64,000 bases of DNA. Origin: Benincasa hispida. Taxonomy: Eukaryota; Streptophyta; Magnoliopsida; Cucurbitales; Cucurbitaceae. The stretch is taken from the NCBI RefSeq assembly GCF_009727055.1, contig NC_052358.1:42483184-42547183 (forward strand), written 5' to 3'. Position 1 is the first letter of the stretch. Each line of letters opens with the position of its first letter. Below, in pieces: positions 9,247-62,388 of this stretch. The notes beneath the pieces were generated by a model. The model ran no database searches. It had not been told where the DNA came from and saw only the letters and a program-made list of their open reading frames with translations. Made by a program: the position numbers and the translations under genes.

Positions 9247-10235
9247 GTTATCTTATAAAATACAGTTACAAACTCAATTGGTATATATTCATGTCTAAGG
9301 TTAGTGGTATTTAAGTTGACAGTCTACGAAACAACTTCTACCTGGAGATTATGACCGAATAATTGAGCGTTGTTAACCGGTTTTATAAGCTTACATGAGC
9401 GGTGTGAGGTAATAAAATGGGTTTATCACCTAGATATTGTAGGTTAAATCAAAATATAAGAGTTATGTTTGAAAAATCACAGACTTAGGATGTTTTTTAG
9501 CCAAAATATACCTAAAAAAAGTATACCCAATATGTTAGAACAGTTCCGTGGGAGATTAATAATATATACAACATATTGTTCTTAGCTCTCACATCCCTAA
9601 GAGTTCACATCATGAGATCCATGCTCGACATCGTGTCGATTTTACCTCGACTATTCCATTCGAAAAGTGTTTGCATAGGTCAATATCAAGGTGAATAGGG
9701 GAAGTAGTTCATAGTAAGTGGGTGCAGGAAATGTATCAACATATCCTACGGTCTCTTCCATTAGTTTGAACCGTGAGATTTCTATGTTGCGCCTGCTGTC
9801 ATTTTTAAGCGGCAATAACTAGTCTTAACCAAGGCGATCCCCTCAGAGTGTAGAATTCGAAACAACCCAAACTTCAAAAATGAATAGGGTTTTATAGTTC
9901 CATCTTGAACATTGTCATCCAATTCAGGGGCATATTCATATCGTTCTATGAAATATGAAAATTGAGGGTCACATTTACAATAGTTACTAAGTGTTAGTAA
10001 GTCCTTGACCGAAAACGGTTACTAAATAACTATAGGAATAAGAGTTATTCTGGAGATAGTATTTGATCAAGATTGTCTTGCTTCGTGAAGGAATATTTGA
10101 CTGACCCTTAGTAGCATCTATTTTGACTCACTAATGTATCACTGCAAATAAATAAAGAAATATGAGTACTTTATTACTTTTGGTAAAATTGGATTTAGAT
10201 GCATAAGTCTAATAGAATTTATTTATTTTTCAGCA
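9247..10235 (+). other. Non-coding leader upstream of Copia gag
   Basis: This stretch has no gene-like frame and ends directly before the gag start codon at 10236. It is probably untranslated leader of the Copia element, but I see no TGGTATCAGAGC primer site, so its start may belong to other repeats. Confidence 0.35.
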
Positions 10236-29907: not shown

Positions 29908-32900
29908 TGGTATCAGAGCTAGGCGACGAAACCCTAGCCGTTAAGGAAGAGAATCAAGCACAATCATCTTCTGCTTATGGAACTTCAGGTTTTGACATGA
30001 AGACAACTATTTGAGCGGCCGTAAAAGAGTGTTTTCAAGCAGCCTTATCGGAGTTACTTTCGGCCATCCAACAGCAGTCAACGGAGAGCCGCCGTCCGTG
30101 GGAGCTGCCGTACCAAATAAATACGGTTGTTCCAGGTTGCAGGGTGTTGCCTTCCGTGCCATCGGAGTCCGCCGCACCGTCACAGACGTCTGTGCCAGTC
30201 GAGGTCGCACTGGTCTACTATTTCACGTCAGTTCCGATCAACCTCAAAAGGGCCACGTCGAACGCGAACGTGGCTGGATCTTCCATGTCAAATGGGTTCG
30301 ACTAACGAAGAGCTATCCAGCCAACGATCCATTACCCAACGACGAGCCATCCAGTAGGCGATCATCTCGAACCGTCCGGTCGGTTGGGTTCTTCATAGTT
30401 GTCGGCGACCTCCTTCTAGCCGGTGATGTCTTTTCAGACGATAGTAGCAGCCCCGTTTCCAGCCGTTTGTGGTTCGACTCATTACCCAGACGATGTGAGA
30501 CAACGGTTGGCTTATCTGCAACAATAGATTTCAGATTTGGATACAATGTTTGGCGCAAATTCCCAACAGGTTCAACCAGTCTATTTAGAGAACCCGGTAA
30601 ACTCGTTCCCTATTTTTCCAAATGTTTCTTATTTATCTGGTTCAATGGACAATTCTGCAGAATTTCTTGTAGGGGAAAAATTAAATGGCCAGAATTATTT
30701 CTCCTGGTCCCAATCAATCCAAATGGCCTTGGAAAGGCGTCACAAATTTAGGTACTTGACAGGGGAGATTCTAAAGCTAGCACCAGGCGATCCACAAGAA
30801 CAAATCTAGAAAGGAGAAGACCCGCTGTTACGCTCTGTTTTGGTGAATAGTATGGAGCCTCAAATAGGCAGACCATTATTATATGCTGCAACCGTCAAGG
30901 ATATCTGGGAGGCAGCGCGAGGTTTGTACTCAAAAAGACATAATGCCTGTCGACTATATACGCTCCACAAACAGGTCCATGAATGCAAACAAGGATCCAT
31001 GAATGTTACATCTTATTTTAACAAACTAACAATGCTCTGGCAAGAGATGGACCTGTATCGAGAGATTGTCTTGAACTGTGCACAAGATGGGGCTCAATAC
31101 TTGAAAATCGAAGAAGCAAACCGTGTTTACATGTTCTTGGCTGGATTAAATCCTAAATTCGATGGTGTCCGTAGTCGCATATTGAGCCAGCACCCGACTC
31201 CCTTAAAGAAGTCTACTCCGAAATATGGCTTGAAGAGAATCGATCGTGTGCCATGAATAATTCCATTCCTACAACTGACGCAGCTGCTTTCGTTGCAAAG
31301 TCATCCAATGCTGATTACGATAAAAAACCCCCACCTGTGTGAACTTTGTAAGAAGCTCTGGCATACAAAGGACCAGTGTTGGAAATTGCAAGGGAAGCCT
31401 CCAAATAGCAGGCGATGACAGTCTCATGACAAATCTAATACTGGTCGTGCCCTGGTAAGTGACTTAGGAGATGAACAAACTCAGAAGCAGTTTTCCGTTG
31501 ATAGTAAGAACAACTTGAGTACGATTGGGGTGAGTGCTATTGCACAGTCATGTAATTTCCCTTCATTTGGTCGTATTAATATAAATGGTAAAAAACCATG
31601 GATTGTGGACTCAGGGGCCACAGATCATCTTACAAGTTCTTTAGAATTGTTTATGTCATATAACCCAAGTGCTGGAAATGAGCGTATTCGCATTGCAGAT
31701 GGGTCTTTTGCCCCTGTTGCGGGGAAAGGCCATATCTCTCTGTTTGACGGTTTAATTCTGTGTGATACTTTACATGTGCCTAAAATATCTTATAATCTAT
31801 TGTCTATCAGTAAAATTACAAGGGATTTGAAGTGTAAGGCAATTTTCTCACCTGATTCTGTTTTGTTTCAGGATCTGAAATCGGGGATGACGATTGGCAC
31901 TGCCAGGCACGATAAGGGACTCTATTTCCTTTCTGAAGAAGCTTCCTCTAGAGATTATCATCAAACTGGGTTTATGTCGTTAAATCTTTCTGTTTCTGAA
32001 AATGACTTTATGTTGTGGCATTTCCATTTAGGACATCCGAATTTTCAATATATGAAGTATTTGTTTCCGCATTTATTTCGTAATGTTAATACTTCTTTAA
32101 ATTGTGATGTGTGTATTCGTGCCAAGCAAAGTCGTGTTTCTTTCCGGTCTCAGCCTTACAAACCCTCGAGTCCTTTTTCCCTTGTTCATAATGATGTATG
32201 GGGCCCCTCACCAGTTACTACTTCCACTGAAAAACGATGGTTTTTCACATTTATAGACGATCATACTCGTCTTACCTGGGTTTTCCTCCTCACTGACAAA
32301 CCTGAGGTGTCATCTATTTTCCAACAATTTTATACAACTGTCGAAACTTAGTTCAAAACAAAGATTGGAATTTTACGAAGTGATAATGGGCGAGAATTCT
32401 TCAATGCCTTCTTCAGGGATTTTCTTGTTTCTAAGGGTATTGTCCACCAGAGCTCGTGTGCTTACACTCCGCAACAAAATGGAGTAGCTGAGTGGAAAAA
32501 TCGTCATCTAAAGTAGTCCGGTCTCTTATGTTATCTGCCACTCTTTCGTCAAACCTATAGGGGGATGCAGTTCTCTCTGCTGCCCATCTCATTAATTGGA
32601 TGCCCTCTCTTATTCTTAATCTTCATACTCCTTTAGAACTGTTTAAAGAGACCTTTCCAACCACTCGATTAATCTCCAATGTTCCTCTTCGGGTTTTTGG
32701 TTGTGTTGCCTTTGTTCACTCCCATGGTCCAAACCGCACAAAATTTACTCCTCGTGCTCAGAAGTGTGTCTTTGTTGGATTTCCACGTTGATGACATCCA
32801 CTTCATCAACGTGGATATAAGTATTATCACCCATCATCTCATAAGTGTTATGTCTCAATGGATGTCACCTTCCTCGAGGATCAGCCATTTTTCCCTGTTA

Positions 32901-43573: not shown

Positions 43574-46500
43574 TTACGAGCACAACGACGAAAATGTGGT
43601 GTTTTGCAACTGGAGACATGGCATAGGAAAGACTGAAGTGCTAAAACCCGAGATGAAAGCACAATGCCATTTTGCGGAGGGTGCGAGACCGAGAATGGTG
43701 ACATTTTTCATACATACACCGTCATATGATGTTCCCTTGATCCCATCAAGAACTGGAGCCTTTGTCGAATTTAAGCTTATGAGATTGGTAATGAAAATAC
43801 CCTTCACTTTAGGAACTGCCTTTGGATCCCATTGTTCATCGGGATGATCATTTGAACCCTTGCTAAATCTTATAGCCATTTTCACTCTGTTCATTACAAA
43901 GTTAGTTATACTAACATTTGCAATGTATCCTCCTCTACCTTGATCAGATTTTATCCGAATGCCAGCTGCCGAATCCCAAATGTTTAAATCCTCGATCGTA
44001 ATGTTCGATATTCCACCTGACATCTCGCTTCCTATTCCGACACCAGAACAGGTTGGAGTGGTGCCAGAAACTCGCCTTATGATGATGTTCGAGCTCGGAC
44101 GTGCAAGGTTCATTCCATATTGATCCCATCCACTCTTCACCGCTACTAGATCATCTCCGCTTTCGATATAACAGTCTTCGATACAAACATTGATACTAGA
44201 ATCTACACCATAATGGAGATTTGGGAATTTAGAAAACTTCATCATTGTTTTTCATTTATTTCTCATACCTCCTCCAAGAAAGACGCAAAATACCTGGATC
44301 AATACCGTCTGTGTTCGGGGCATTGAGCGGAGCCAAGATCGTCATGTCTTTGATAACAACATTGCTGAAATCATAAAAGGAAACAAAGAAAAGTTCAAAA
44401 ATCAAACAAAAGTATATAGAATTACAAAGAGTCGATTGAGAATGAAACCTGCAATAGACCGGATGAATTGTCCAAAAGGGAGAATTTTTTAAGGTGAGAT
44501 TGGAGATGAGAATATTGTGAGAGTCGATGAGCTCTACAAGATGACCTCTTGTGTGATTTAATGTTCTATTCCACCAAAGCTCCCACCACATCTTGCCTTG
44601 CCCATCAATGGTTCCATTCTCTCCTGAAAAACAACACAAACTAATTAGATTTTCATGATTCAAAATATTCTCGAACCCGGGCACGATCAAAGGTAAATGA
44701 GAAGAAGAGATTTACACCATTTCCAGTTTCAATAAACAAAGCTAATGTAGATCAAACGTTATGATCCCATTAAACATTTCACCATTCAATGAATGGTAGG
44801 TAAAAACTTCTTATGCTTAATCTTTATGGACCGACTCTACTGGTGTTAAAGTTCAATAATATGTGAGGGTGAGAGTTCAAACATCTAACATTTTTCAGTA
44901 AAAATTATATATATATTAACTAGTTGAGCTACGCCGATCAAATTGGTGGCCTACTAGCACTTGGGTGTGGTCAAAACACAAGAAATTCAAAGCAAGAATA
45001 TGTAGATTGAGTAGTCTTAGAATGTGCATCTTATGCTTTAAATTTATTTTTTTAAAAAACGAAAGAAATTTTATTAATGAAAAGAGGAAAATACAAAAAC
45101 ATTTATATCAGCCTCAAATAAGGATGTAAGCTATAAGGGAAAAGAGCTTATCCAAAATACAGGAGAAGATGAATCAGCAAGGAAGGAAGCGTAAGAGTGA
45201 ACCACATCGTTACAAGATCTTGAAATATAATTGAGGAAAATGAGAGATGCTAAAGATATGCTTGTATTTTATTACACCATACCCCAATTTCATTTCTGTG
45301 TGATGAAGAATCATTGAGATCCCTAACAGCATTAAGAGAATCAGATTCAATAAGAAGATGGTGAAGATTTAAATTGGTTGCTAGATCTAAACCATGATGG
45401 ATGGCCATTAATTCCACATGAAGAGAATTTTGAAGATCAGAAAACTCACAAGAAGCAACTACAGTGGCACCGAAGCTGTCTCTAATCGTGGCCCCAAATT
45501 GTGATGAAGAATCTTTGGTAGATCAAGCTCTATCAACATTAAGTTTAAAGCAGCCGATTGGAGAAGGAAGCCAAAAAGGAGTCGTGCCGAAAAAGAGGAA
45601 CGCGAGAACGGTATAGCAGAGACTCACATAAACCTTTCTTTTGAAATTCTTCAAAATAAGATAAAATCCAGGTAATCTTCATAGAGACATCTGGGATAGG
45701 CTTGTCGTGTAAAATAGCATTCCTATCGAATAGCCTAGCAAACAATACAAGCAAGAGATAATTTTGAGGTGCTAAGATTCAAACGCTATAAACACCACAA
45801 ATCGAGCATTGAGCCATTCCAATTTTCCATTCCAGCATTGAAGAAGCTGAAGTAAAATATTGTTCCAAATTTCTTTAGCTCAATTGCAAAGGAGGAGAGC
45901 TTATACATATGATTCCTTTTTGTTTTTGAAACAGGGACAAAATGGAGGACCGTCAATTCCTTTGCTAAGAAGAGGATATCTAGTAGGTATGCAATTCTTC
46001 AATACTTTCCACATAAAGAATTTAATTTTGTTGTAGTTCTGAAGCTTCCATAAATGTTTCCAAATTGAGATTAAGTGATGAGGATTAGAGGAAGAAGAGG
46101 AGAAGCAAGGCGATAATCATTCTTTACAATTATATTTATCATCTGAAGAATAGTGTCAAACCCAAATATCTTCATTAGGAGTCTTTCCTAAGGAAATAGA
46201 TTTCACGGCTTTCTAATCAAACTCAAATATTTTATGCTTTATATTCAAATACCTAACTTTTCTAGCCTCATGTGACCACTCAACCTAAAATCCTACCATC
46301 TTCTTGACGACCTAAATATACTCAAGATCAAGTGTCCTTATAAAACTTCCTTTATTGAAAATTTCACTTTTCTAAAGTAGAGTGACTTTGCTTCCACGAT
46401 CTATTAAGATTCAACTCTTCACCGTTCTAATTCATCCCTCCCCACACATAAAAACACATATAGCAAATAAGCATATTCTTGAGAAACAGAAATAATATTC

Positions 46501-48943
46501 TTAGCCCTAAATCTTTTTTTTTTTTTTAATATTATCCTGGTTCCTAATAGCTTAGTCATGCCCAGAGTTTGATTCCATTACATTACAAAAACCAAGAATT
46601 CTCATGAATATAAAACCCTAGCAATGAAGATGAGCCAAAAACAAAAATAAAATAAAATAAAATAAGCAGGCAAATAAATAAAGAAATAAATAAAGAAGAA
46701 GAAAAAGAAAAGTGGGAGTGTACCTGTAATGACAACATTGGAAAGAGCATTGCCATGAATAAGGCTGATGTGTCTTCCTCCCAACCTCTCTCTTCCTCTT
46801 CCATATGAAGGTAGTGGCTCTATAATGGGCCACTCTTCTGGATCCTATTTTTTAATTTCAAAACAAATATTTTTAAACCACACACTAAGCCTTTGACACT
46901 AAACATACCACTATCATTAGTAAAGCAAACAACCATAATTCACCCTTATCAAATAAAAAATATTTAGTCCATTTAGATCTCATCATAATTTGATATATGG
47001 TAAATTTTTTTTATTTAAGAGTGGGATGCATCAAGATAGATGTTATTCAGACTGCACTCAAAAAAAAATTTATTTGATAATTTATTTGATTGGTTAAACT
47101 AAAGTTTGTTCAAATTCAAATAATACCCACTAAACAAAAAAAGTCAACTAATTATCATAAAAGCTTTGTTTACAGTTACACACCTTGGGGGATGGAATCA
47201 CAACTTTTATTTTATTTTATTTTATTTTCCCTAAGGAGTTTGTAAATGGGAAATCCCAAACACTAATATAAATTTGAAATTAAAAATGATTAACCATGTC
47301 CATCATTTGAAACAAAGCTTCAAAAGCACTAATGAATGCATTAAATGATAATTTATAGTGCCAATAAATCATTAGCATACAACTCTTTTTTCTCTCATAA
47401 TTTTACTGCTTTATTATTATTATCATCATCATTTACTTTTCGGTTCTTTACAAATTTACTTCTTCAACAAGTATTAAATAATATATCTAATATGTCCTAA
47501 AACTTTTAAAAAAAAATTGACGTGGTCGGATTTAATGTTTAATAACATACTAAAGTATCAGAAAAAAAATGATACATCTAAATTCTTCAATTTTGTGTCG
47601 GATAGATCCTTGAAATTTATAAAATATTGAATAGGTCAAATACTAATTAGAAATAAAATTGAGTATTTAGAGATCTATTTAATACAAAATCAAAAGTTTA
47701 GAATCTATTAAACGCTTTGTGGACTTTGAAAAATCAAATAGACACAAATTTCAAACTTGAAGAAGTTATCTAGCATTTTTCTTAGGTTTAGAGACCAAAT
47801 AAGTATGCAAGTTTAAAAATTAACTTCATAATTTATTTTATTTTATCTATATATAAGTTAAAATGAAATTTTAGTCCTCGTACTTTCAATAAATCTTAAA
47901 TTTAATTTCTATTGTTAAAGTTTATTGTTGAATTTTTTTTTTAAAAAAAGATCTCTTTATTATCTAGTAGTATTTTAACTATAAATTATGGAAATATGTT
48001 CACATGTCAAATAAAGTTATAATTATTATTTAATTGAAATTAACTTTAAAGAACAAAATTTAGGATTAATTGAAAATTTGAGAGAGAAATTTTAACATTT
48101 ATGAGAGTATATGAAGTAAAATAGATTAAAGTCAAGGAATAAGGACTAGGAAGGCATTGTTGAGGGTGGGCCCCATTAGGCATGTTTATTGGTTTAAAAA
48201 TACAATTAACAACATAGATGACACCACCAGAGTCATCACTCTGATTTTTCCTTTTCTGCTTAGTTATTAAAAAACCAATTTTGGCATTTTCTTCATCCTC
48301 AGAATCACAAAAAAATTGTCCTTTTTAAAAACTCATTAAAAACAAAATAATACTAACAGTAAAAGAAAAAAAACACCACACGAAGACTTACTTCACATGA
48401 ATATTTACAACAAAACACTTCAAGAAATAAAACAAATTACAAAAGACAAGCTTAAAATTACCATATGTAATTTAAGTTAAGGGTAAATAATAATAATAAT
48501 AATAATAATAAAAGGCTGACCTGGGATGCCAAAATAAGAGCGCCACGTTGGAGAAAGAGCGTAAAATTACTGGTGAGATTAAAGCTGCCCGTGACCCAAC
48601 TGCCCTTAGGAACCGTCAGTTTAGACCCGCCTTTCTCGCCGAACCGCCGCATGTACTCAATCGCCTTCCGAAACGCTTCCGTGTTCGAAGTTTTCCCGTC
48701 CCCTACTCCTCCGAAATCGGTTATCGACATCACCACCGCCGCCGTATCCGCCGCCGCATCTCGCCGGAAGAAAGCGGAGCAAGTCGGCTGTTGGAAATCG
48801 GAGGGAAGCCAGATGGTCGGGAAAGGGGTTCTGGTGGCGATTTGGAAGGTGAGAATAGCGAGGAAGATGAAGAGGAGGAGAAGGGAGGAGCAGGAAGGGT
48901 TGATCGGAGGGCCGAAACTGAATTTTGATTTCTCACCGTCCAT
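43574..48943 (-). CDS. Polygalacturonase (glycoside hydrolase family 28), five exons, intact
   Basis: Predicted exons are 48521-48943, 46724-46844, 44449-44623, 44294-44364 and 43574-44202. All introns are GT-AG and all junctions keep frame, giving 473 codons with stop (472 residues), a usual length for the family. The start MDGEKSKFSF is followed by a hydrophobic anchor or signal (SSLLLLFIFLAILTFQIA, about residues 19-36). ITDFGGVGDGKTSNTEAF marks the N-terminal beta-helix start. Catalytic motifs are NTDGIDP (exon 4) and SGDDLVAV (exon 5). The usual GHG is GVGIGSEMSGG, typical of one plant clade, and RIKSDQGRGG is the substrate-binding loop. The family hydrolyses alpha-1,4-galacturonan in cell-wall pectin after secretion; endo or exo mode cannot be told from sequence. 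Intron 1 starts beside a (TAA)n tract, and intron 2 carries a LINE. No interrupting stop or shift is seen. Promoter not identified. Confidence 0.95.
44858..44950 (-). mobile_element. SINE-like insert in intron 2 of polygalacturonase
   Basis: It is orthologous in position to 39081-39170, with the same A-box-like and B-box-like order on the minus strand. It carries a short AT expansion in the middle. Confidence 0.5.
45041..46228 (-). mobile_element. 5'-truncated LINE in intron 2 of polygalacturonase
   Basis: Minus-strand reading shows a zf-RVT-like segment (SIWKHLWKLQNYNKIKFFMW, ending PFCPCFKN) followed by an RNase H-like domain (GATIRDSFGATVVASCEF; LLIESDSLNAVRDL), both typical C-terminal parts of plant L1-type LINEs. 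The 3' end is A-rich (about 45041-45060). The insert is bracketed by atcttatgcttta (45028-45040) and attttatgcttta (46229-46241), a 13-base target duplication with one mismatch. The pseudogene copy has an uninterrupted site at about 39250-39260. Endonuclease and reverse transcriptase are missing, so it is a 5'-truncated insertion with stops. Confidence 0.85.
48486..48511. repeat. (TAA)n microsatellite in intron 1
   Basis: About eight TAA/AAT triplets lie some ten bases inside the intron 1 donor of the polygalacturonase gene. This could be a useful polymorphic marker. Confidence 0.9.
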
Positions 48944-55854: not shown

Positions 55855-58800
55855 ACAATAAGGGGAATCCCACAGCTAGGGATCAAGGCATCAAAGCAAC
55901 AAAGCACAAGCAAAGACAGGGCAACAAAACCAAAACAAAGCCAAAAAGTTAAGACCATAACAAAATCAACACATAAACACAAAACTCGCAAACCACTAGG
56001 AAGAAAACCAGAAAAAAGAAACCAAAACCCCACAAACTAGGGGGACAATAGCAAAACAAAGAACAACGAAAAGTTCAAAAAGAAAAAACAACAATAAACA
56101 CATTAGATAAGACCAAGAAGATCAACTTGCCAGGAAGTAGGACAAGCACAAACCGTAGAGACCATAAGGTGAACCAGAGTAGACACTGACCTCGTCGACC
56201 TCTATGTAGCCGCCGATTACGCTCCTGTCAGATGTAGTATATGGAAACACACCAGAATACACGGAACAACTTACTACGCATCCCCTTACCCGACCACTCA
56301 GCACAACCAACTCAACTCTACATCCCAACCCACCACCCGATGAGACGAACCCAACTAACGCAACACACCAGACCACACCTCTCTTCCCAAACCCACACTC
56401 AAAAAATAAATGATATCACGACTCCACACCCTCCCCAAACAGAAGACACCCCCCCTTTGACAACACACCCCAACTTCTCAACCAATCCCGCATACCCAAC
56501 CTGTCCCAGTGACACGGAATACCACCCCTACCCACAAAATACCAGCCCAAGGCACCCTAGGACAATGAGGACACAAATTCTCCCACGCACTAGCAATAGA
56601 AAACCAACCACTAGCATCCGACACCCAAACCCAATAATCCTCCCCCCCTCCCCCCTCCATCCCCACCTTAGGCCCCACTGCCTGAATAATACCCCAGATT
56701 TTAAGCAGCTCCCAAGACACTGTAGACCACCTCCAACCTCCCTCACCATCCATGAACTCCGAAACCCGCGCCTCCAAACTATTCCCTGCATCATAAACCA
56801 CCGTAGACCTATATAAATCCAAAATCGCACACCCCGGCATCCAAGGATCTCACCAAAATAAACAAGACCGTCCATCGCCGACTATCAAACGAACCAGATG
56901 CTTGAATCTATCTATACTTCACAAGATAGCCCTCAAGCACCAAGACCTCCAAACCTCACTCTGAACAACCCACAAAGACCTTCCATGCAAAACATACGCC
57001 TCCACCCATGCCACCTATAATGATCTCAATTTAATTAAGAGAAGCCAGAGCAGCTTCATAATAACAGCCTGGTTCCAAGAGGCCACATACTTCACACTCA
57101 ACCCCTCTTCTCCCACGGCAATTATACTCTCATCCCACGCCACTTGCGCCCCACCCAACTCACCACATTATCCTTCCATAAATAACTACATAACAGATGA
57201 TCAACCTTATGAGTTACACACGTAGGCAACACGAAAATGCTACACTAAAACACTTGAAAGGACTGTAAAACATACCTAAAAAGCTGTAACCTCTTAGCAA
57301 AGGAGAGGGACCGCGCTGCCAGCTTCTAATACGGGTTGTAATCCTCTGTATCAAAGGCGCACAAATCCACAGCCCTCAACCGACCTGCTAATAAAGGTAA
57401 ATCCAGATATCCTATACAGGCAGCGAACCAAGAGAGAAACCCATAAATGCAGCTAGTTCCTCCGCCTCCCCAGACTCCACAACCGCAACAAACGTGAAAC
57501 TCTTCCCAACATTTGCAACTAACCCAGACAGCCCTGCAAAATCTGCTAGGACCTGCCTCACAAACTCCAAAGAATCTCTCTCAGCTACACAGAAAATCAT
57601 CAAATCATCTACAAAAACCAAATGAGTCAGGCCTACATACTCACACCGATCATGGAACCTAAACCACACAGGAGGTTTATTCAATAACCTAGACAAGACC
57701 TCCATCACCATCACAAACAAAAAAGGAGACAACAGATCCCCCTACCTCAACCCCTTCCTACTAGGAAAAAAACTCCTCAAGGGAACCATTAATCATTATA
57801 GAGAACTTAGGCGAAGTAACACAAGCCCTCACCCAACTAACAAACTGAAGGGGCGTACCTATAGCCAGCAACACACCAAACAGAAAATCCCAATTAACCG
57901 AATTGTACGTTTTCTGAAGGTCTACCTTTAACATACAACGCGGCTTCCCTCTGCCCTTCTTATAGCCCCCCACAAGCTCCTGACACAATAAAATATTATC
58001 GAAAATCGACCTACCCGGAACAAACGCAGACTGGTTACCACTGTTGAAATTAGGCAACCACAACCATAATCTCTCAGCTAAGATCCTCGGGATATACTTA
58101 TACACAACATTGCAACAAGAAATAGGACGAAACTTCTCCATACATTCAGCTTCTCGCCTCTTTGGGATAAGAGTAATAGCACGACCCACGGGGAAGGTTT
58201 GACGAAGGTGTCTTTCTAACAGTAGAATTAACTCCACCAGGCAGGTAACAAGACTAAAAAAAAATTCAGCACAACATCACAGAAATCATTCCCAACCACA
58301 CTCCAAGCAGCTCTCTAAAAATCCACCGAAAACCCATCAGGCCCAGGAGCCTTCCCAAATTTCATCGAGAACAAAGCCTTCTGAATCTCATCCCGATTCA
58401 CTAGGCGATCAAGCGCCTCCACCCCCTCTTCAGACCAGCTAAACTGCACAATATCCCCAATTCGGGCATTAAGATCCCTTTACCCCACAAGCTGAGACCC
58501 TAAACAACCCCGAAAGAATTTTACTACCACCCCTGCCACCCTGTCATGCATCGTCTGGCGAGTTCCCCCAACATCCACGACTATAAATAAACCATTGCAA
58601 CTGCGACGAAAACAAACACAGCGATGAAAAAAAGTTGTATTCATATCACCTAACTCTAGCCACCTCACCCTAGCCTTCTGCCGGAGTGACATCTCCTCTA
58701 ATCTCGCCACTAACTAGAACACCTCAGTGGCTGAGTCGCCTCCGCACACACCGACTCTGAAGCAGGATCCCTTTCTACCTTAGCTTGAGCAGCCTCTATA

Positions 58801-59870
58801 ACCTGCCTAGCCACCTGTACCTCATCATCTAATACAAAGATACGCCTACCAAACGATGCATGTAAAACCCGCTTCACTGCCTTCAAATTTCACACAAAGC
58901 TAACCATAGGAGACATATCATCAGACCTTCTCCACATTGACCTGATAGTATCAATAAAACCCTCAGTTTCTGCCTAATGAGAAAAATGACGAAACGTAGG
59001 AGGCGGCCTACTTCTTGTCTCCCCTGTAAAAACCAAAAGAGGGCTATGATCAGAAATCCCCCACTGACCAACCCTAACCTCCGAATACGGAAAATCTACC
59101 TTCCACGCCTCATTAGCAAGCATCGATCCAACCGGCGCAAGATACCATTCCTTTGAAGTTTACTAGTCCAAGTAAACCAGTTACTTATCACACCCAACTC
59201 AACCAGATCCGCCTCTAGTAACGCCCCATCAAACTTCTTCATCTCCCTCAAGCTAGGGCAACCACCAAAATCCTCCAAACTACTACGAATAGCATTAAAA
59301 TCCCCCAAAACAACTCCAGAAAGCTGCCACGAGACACTCACATCAATCAGTTGAGACCACAAGTTCCTCCTCTTGCTCACGTGATTAGAGGCATACACAA
59401 CACCAATATGTACCCTAACACTAGACACAATATCCACTAAGGTTTCATAAATGAACTGATCCCCATTGACATCAATAGAAAAATCATAGACAGTCTTCCA
59501 CCACATCATCCAGATCCTCCCAACTCCCTGCATATTATAGCTACACACACAACTCCAAGCATCACCAAACCTACCCATCACCATACCAAAATTCTCGCGA
59601 CGAACCCTTCTCAAACAAACAGCAGAAAGTAACTGAGGAGGAAGCCAGAAAGTCTGCCACCACCCTACACTTGACAGGGTCATTCAACTTCCTGACATTC
59701 TAGGAACACCACATCATGAACCTTGCAAAAAATCACACCTACCACTTCCCAATGGGCCTTTGCCCGAACTCCCGAACATCTCATGCATAACAGACAACAG
59801 ATCAGGATCTGCTTTCACTAGTGCCAATGCCAACGAGTCTCCTCTAGGACAATCTTGATACTGATCCATT
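55855..59870 (-). pseudogene. L1-type LINE, nearly full pol, degenerate
   Basis: On the minus strand, an ORF1-like tail is followed by endonuclease from about 59725 (NVRKLNDPVKCRVVADF; VVLGDFNAIRSSLEDFGGC; NWFTWTSKLQRNGILRRLD). The linker RWLELGDMNTTFFHRC (58480-58710) leads to RT: FRPISCCNVVYKYI, GNQSAFVPGRSIFDNILLCQ, GLRQGDLLSPFLFVMVMEVL and the catalytic FVDDLMIF (LINEs usually have FADD). A zf-RVT-like part follows (about 56500-56900; SDASGWFSIASAWE). Frame shifts and stops occur throughout. The element is markedly G-rich on its own strand compared with its AT-rich surroundings. I could not find an A tail or target duplication. Confidence 0.88.
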
Positions 59871-61712: not shown

Positions 61713-61839
61713 TAGGGTTGGTAAAATTTTCCATGAGGTTGGGTCCTCAAAGGGCCCCACCTGATCGAGACGAGGAATCCCCGGTTTGACTGGGGATGGG
61801 GGTCAAACTAGGGACCTCTTTAGGGTCCCCGTCTGGAGA

Positions 61840-62087
61840 CTGGAAAGGTATCCCCACCTCGACCCCAACCCCAATTAGATTTTTAAATATATACTTTTTA
61901 AATATATATATATATATATATATTAGATATTTAACTATTTAAATCTGTCTCTTATACACATCTAGATGTGTATAAGAGACAGCTGGAAAGGTATCCCCAC
62001 CTCGACCCCAACCCCAATTAGATTTTTAAATATATACTTTTTAAATATATATATATATATATATATTAGATATTTAACTATTTAAAT
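61840..62087. repeat. 105-bp direct repeat flanking adapter sequence
   Basis: 61840-61944 and 61983-62087 appear identical, both starting ctggaaaggtatccccacc and ending ttaactatttaaat. They are separated only by the 38-base adapter dimer. Confidence 0.92.
61945..61982. other. Tn5 mosaic-end inverted dimer (library adapter artefact)
   Basis: Positions 61945-61963 read CTGTCTCTTATACACATCT, and 61964-61982 read its exact reverse complement AGATGTGTATAAGAGACAG, the hyperactive Tn5 mosaic end used in transposase-based library kits. This head-to-head dimer is the circularisation junction of mate-pair libraries of that type. It is not a plant sequence. Confidence 0.97.
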
Positions 62088-62388
62088 TTAGGCTAGTGTT
62101 TAATTCAGCCCAATCTAAGCCCAACTAAAGTGTCCAAGTCCAAATCAAAAGGAATTTTAGGATTTTTTTTTTTAAAAGGGTCCCTATGGGGAAACAAAAA
62201 GGGAAACGAGGAATGGGTCCTCGTAGGGACCCATTTCCTTGACAAGGAATCCCTACCTTTGTCCTCGCCTTCAAATGGCAGAGACGGGGTGCAAGGATGG
62301 TGGTAAATTCCCCCATCGGGGATGGGGACGGAGACGGGGACCTCCTCTTTTTACCCTGCCCCGGTCTTATTCCAGCCCTATTTCAAGG

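Follow-up and report, generated by a model that had tools for sequence, protein, structure and literature searches.

The closest described counterpart of the sequence considered here is the junction of Nextera mate-pair libraries. In the part of the NextClip paper that deals with this chemistry (PMC3928519), a transposase places a 19 bp biotinylated adaptor on both ends of each fragment, the two adaptors meet upon circularisation, and the junction so formed is sought as 38 bases, i.e., one adaptor forward and one reverse. The same mate-pair steps, with strand displacement and circularisation, are given in the corresponding part of the HuRef data paper (PMC6298255). The second counterpart is Tn5 transposition itself, where insertion leads to a 9-bp duplication according to an excerpt of PMC4248319, and where the wild-type Tn5 ends have been replaced in vitro by hyperactive mosaic ends according to excerpts of PMC4248319 and PMC3046479, the latter of which prints the 19 bp mosaic-end oligonucleotide as AGATGTGTATAAGAGACAG.

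The window, meaning the whole 64 kb stretch of DNA that was analysed (64,000 nucleotides, C10:42483184-42547183), belongs to a plant-like host assembly of 912.9 Mb in 1791 contigs. Inspection of the sequence identified a perfect 38-base palindrome at 61945-61982, which consists of two 19-base Tn5 mosaic ends and reads CTGTCTCTTATACACATCT/AGATGTGTATAAGAGACAG. The printed 19-mer matched with 0 mismatches at 61945-61963 on the minus strand (first half of the adapter) and at 61964-61982 on the plus strand (second half), and besides these two no mosaic-end match with up to three mismatches was found in the window. Shuffling gave a mean of 0.02 matches per shuffle in 100 shuffles and two matches in none of them, so that a chance palindrome is ruled out. 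A repeat search of the window additionally revealed a direct repeat of two plus-strand copies of 105 nt, 100% identical and 76% AT, at 61840-61944 and 61983-62087, hereafter segment X. These copies are spaced by 143 bases (105 + 38), and the adapter abuts both of them with zero spare bases in between. The coordinates, the palindrome and the two 105-base copies reported in the initial annotation of this DNA were all exact on recheck, and its reading of the dimer as the junction adapter of transposase mate-pair libraries agrees exactly with the 38-base junction described in the NextClip excerpt (PMC3928519). Based on these observations, it is practically certain that the feature is a laboratory artefact, an adapter from a Nextera-type mate-pair library, and not biology.

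The artefact is located in a dispersed non-coding repeat at 61713-62380 (668 bp, or 525 bp without the extra 143), which starts with TAGGGTTGG and finishes with CCAGCCCTA and which we take, by these ends, to be hAT-like. Its 8-base flanks in the window, CTTCAAGC and TTTCAAGG, are equal at six of eight bases. When 61983-62230 was searched in the host's own genome, at least 46 matches were obtained, a lower bound given that 40 of 269 candidates were scored; four of these matches fell at the window locus, namely the query itself, the other copy and two self-matches in inverted orientation, and three were second matches within other copies. Six paralogues were taken from the seven best other places, and all six contained one X and no mosaic end, in support of the earlier claim that the 105-base duplication is false. 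One of the two X copies in the window is false, and as the copies are identical the false one of the pair cannot be picked out.

Removal of one X and the adapter from the window allowed a single-piece alignment to three of the six paralogues (L179, L181 and L182), and with the unedited window these same alignments split in two, the same part of the paralogue being used twice. The gain in bits upon removal of the insert was small in this group (250 to 251, 261 to 282 and 206 to 209). The remaining three (L178, L180 and L183) aligned only from inside X rightward, with scores that were unchanged without the insert. The start motif TAGGGTTGG was exact in L180, L182 and L183, on the other strand in the last case, and in L180 it was present at both ends, where the 8-base flanks match at seven of eight positions. 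Since the identity of the repeat paralogues in this genome is just 75-85%, their alignment shows how the repeat family is normally arranged and not the window locus itself.

Other parts of the window contained features of their own. The region at 57761-59683 on the minus strand is probably a degraded LINE, with an RVT_1 fragment at 57761-58237 (E = 4.4e-19) and, upstream of this fragment, a 195 aa open reading frame at 59096-59683 (minus strand) with no Pfam match. Matches to Pol_BBD and gag_pre-integrs were found at 31515-32351 on the plus strand, which is probably a fragment of a Copia-type retrotransposon. A probable exon of glycosyl hydrolase family 28 (polygalacturonase-like) lies at 43574-44245 on the minus strand (E = 7.3e-17), and the stretch at 48458-48943, also on the minus strand and with no Pfam match, may belong to the same gene. 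A scan of the window against Rfam at gathering scores and for tRNA gave no match.

Across the host assembly, the 38-mer matched exactly at 9,991 places, i.e., about one adapter per 91 kb, and the reversed control pattern was found 0 times; single mosaic ends numbered 10,766 and 10,764 on the two strands. The suspicion, raised when the window was first described, that other loci in the assembly are affected was thus borne out. A sample of 20 own-genome loci was fetched, corresponding to the first 24 of 50 junctions listed; it comes from the start of contig C1 and is not random, and together with the window it provides 25 junctions, 23 of them distinct. In four distinct cases, a mosaic end in the own-genome loci lacked an intact partner; three of these adjoin a partner that is truncated or altered, and the fourth (L152) is without any. 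Amongst the 50 junctions listed, all on contig C1, 10 of the 49 neighbour distances were below 1 kb, compared with a mean of 0.4 and a maximum of 3 in 2,000 trials of uniform placement.

The target preference of Tn5 is GNTYWRANC. The first base off the adapter was G on 8,907 of the 19,982 sides of all 9,991 junctions (44.6%), compared with approximately 17% G in the sampled loci, and assembly-wide the junction flanks therefore show the G excess that cut sites of Tn5 should have. When a weight matrix of 9 bases was trained exclusively on 276 junction flanks from prokaryote assemblies, it gave 43 own-genome flanks (window excluded) higher scores than 3,970 random sites (p = 4e-14, Mann-Whitney test), a difference to which base composition may add and which comes from a test that dropped flanks with N, repeated flanks and flanks with adapter and that treated both sides of one junction as independent. 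Relative to the random sites, the weight-matrix scores of the two window flanks ranked at the 84th and 95th percentile, and the first bases of these flanks are C and A, neither of them the preferred G. For the window locus alone the cut-site signature is only suggestive.

Copies that begin and end exactly at the adapter are expected if a fragment was circularised whole, and this is the arrangement in the window. Such flush duplications were found at seven of the 23 distinct own-genome junctions (window included) versus one of 192 random places, and at 25 of 147 distinct junctions in prokaryote assemblies versus 0 of 1,108 random places. Five of the seven own-genome cases were exact, with lengths of 10, 105, 109, 129 and 190 bases, and the two others spanned 61 bases with one mismatch and 191 bases with 10. 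The prokaryote lengths ranged from 8 to 158 bases, plus one of 770, and 18 of them were at least 25 bases; these 147 junctions come from 120 of the affected stretches, several of them from the same assemblies, and a few are close to where the stored sequence breaks off. In the viral contigs, none of seven junctions had a flush duplication, and four of the seven are so near an end of the stored sequence (within 10 bases) that one could hardly appear. The test excluded N and reduced junctions to distinct ones; without the exclusion of N, 39 of 635 random places were positive, which we attribute to N runs matching each other.

No flush duplication was found at 16 of the 23 own-genome and 122 of the 147 prokaryote distinct junctions, and the geometry of a small circle thus accounts for only part of the junction set. 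Of the 24 junctions that the 20 own-genome loci contain, 14 have no flank whose terminal 20-mer recurs exactly in the 9.9-kb locus, and for these no mate was found. A blastn comparison of the 600-base sides found a repeat of at least 37 bases at 12 of 25 junctions, a count that stands with no random control.

The origin that we consider quite probable for the window is that a tagmented fragment of 105 bp was circularised, read across its junction, and woven into the assembly untrimmed. The sample DNA would have been cut by Tn5 that carried biotinylated mosaic ends of 19 bases, and one tagmentation product would have been exactly the 105-bp X, flanked by a mosaic end on either side. This product would then have been ligated into a circle of about 143 bp, in which the two ends meet as the 38-base palindrome; a 143-bp DNA circle is mechanically unfavourable. 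Shearing that opened the circle within X would give a read consisting of the rest of X, the adapter and the beginning of X, in which the adapter was presumably left untrimmed. An assembler or gap filler may then have overlapped this junction read with ordinary reads on both sides to produce X, adapter and X, where the genome would carry a single X, and related joins of other fragments would have spread approximately 10,000 adapters over the assembly.

The demonstrated parts of this account are the identity of the adapter, its genome-wide number, the cut-site signature of the flanks, the flush exact duplication and the single-copy paralogues. The small circle, the overlap step and the stage of assembly are inferred. 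Our confidence in the full mechanism is below that in the adapter alone, because the mechanism includes the small-circle step and because only those five of 23 duplications are exact. A false tandem array at L172 (C1:2861251-2861789), in which four adapters from amongst the 50 listed junctions occur at an exact spacing of 167 bases (129 local bases + 38), is as expected from repeated walking of one small circle, and its four-fold exactness may mean that a cycle was traversed several times over, which a gap filler could do.

The alternative that survives best agrees that the adapter is a mate-pair artefact and would derive the duplication from intermolecular ligation of two overlapping fragments or from an overlap of contig ends. 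The 16 own-genome junctions without a flush duplication imply that other kinds of join must exist, and the offset, non-flush repeats by junctions L168, L170 and L177 also speak in its favour. It would be rare for two random fragments to share the same 105 bp of origin, flush duplications are seen repeatedly amongst the own-genome junctions, and the 167-base spacing of the L172 array fits a circle; taken together, these observations make the joining of separate fragments an unlikely source of the duplication at the window, and circularisation of a single fragment is the preferred reading.

As for the step at which a junction read entered the assembly, it had been proposed that a mate-pair junction read was built in during gap filling or contig extension through an AT-rich stretch. 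The mate-pair junction is well supported. The join may have arisen in gap filling, in contig extension or in the assembly graph; three of the 20 sampled loci have an N run within about 5 kb. AT richness does not hold as a general cause: the 400 bases around the 25 sampled junctions averaged 58% AT, and 456 blocks elsewhere in these loci averaged 65%, a difference to which no significance test was applied, even with X itself at 76%.

Occurrence of the 38-mer extended well beyond the host. Prokaryote assemblies of many genera, in a collection that holds one genome per species, had it in at least 120 stretches (L001-L120), and it was also present in seven viral-contig stretches and five of 72,556 plasmid records; amongst complete E. 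coli genomes it was found in 0 of 20,395 records. Two cyanobacterial strains with the 38-mer had 3-kb mate-pair libraries according to excerpts of PMC4384490 and PMC4384489, which leave the kit unnamed, and the matching records are second versions. Altogether, whether a genome contains the 38-mer seems to depend on the way in which it was sequenced.

These counts also bear on a true biological insertion, where a Tn5-like element or an engineered transposon (from mutagenesis or a transgene) would have left its ends and a target duplication, and perfect inverted ends beside a direct repeat do look like a tiny transposon. The same 38-mer in so many prokaryote genera, combined with its absence from the complete E. 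coli records, argues against such an origin, as does the mosaic end itself, a hyperactive derivative of the wild-type ends in the cited parts of PMC4248319 and PMC3046479. The duplication here is 105 bases rather than 9, and its length differs between loci, which speaks against a transposon target duplication. With identical copies by the thousand in one assembly added to the mosaic ends and the non-9-base duplication, natural and engineered Tn5 insertions are both rejected, and we assign them a negligible probability.

Read-through of ordinary Nextera paired-end libraries, whose adapters share the 19-base mosaic end (excerpt of PMC4248319), has scarcely any probability left and is ruled out as well, since it predicts kit tails after the mosaic end, and searches for the mosaic end extended by the initial 8 bases of each of the two kinds of tail (sequences from an excerpt of PMC11575248) gave 0 and 0 matches in 912.9 Mb, where the 9,991 dimers are head to head; the lack of a Nextera tail beyond the mosaic end points to a mate-pair kit.

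Nothing is learned here about plant biology, and the observations matter to users of assemblies only. The artefact is ordinary in kind and large in number. Adapters of this type can yield false tandem repeats, indels, broken exons and spurious palindromes, and part of them bring with them a falsely duplicated stretch, from tens of bases to about 200. Given that the adapter also occurs in public prokaryote, viral and plasmid sequences, a screen for the 38-mer is worthwhile. Among the papers listed in literature searches, no report of this class of artefact in finished assemblies was found, and such a report may exist. Tentatively, and with somewhat more doubt than confidence, we suggest that fragments below about 200 bp in mate-pair libraries might circularise often enough for their junction reads to leave systematic, countable false local tandem duplications and arrays in finished genomes. 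If this were true, the length of each duplication would equal the size of a minicircle, and archived assemblies would record how easily short DNA circles close.

Compared with the known systems, the locus is alike to the Nextera mate-pair junction adapter (Illumina long mate-pair kit) in having two 19-base adaptors head to head, a length of 38 bases and an origin in tagmented, circularised DNA. It differs in that the adapter lies in an assembly rather than in raw reads, and in that the window locus bears a false duplication of a whole fragment. With a Tn5 transposition product and its target-site duplication it shares inverted 19-base ends by a direct repeat; in contrast to such a product, the window has no cargo between the ends, its repeat is 105 bases, with varying lengths at other loci, instead of 9, and its ends are of the mosaic form.
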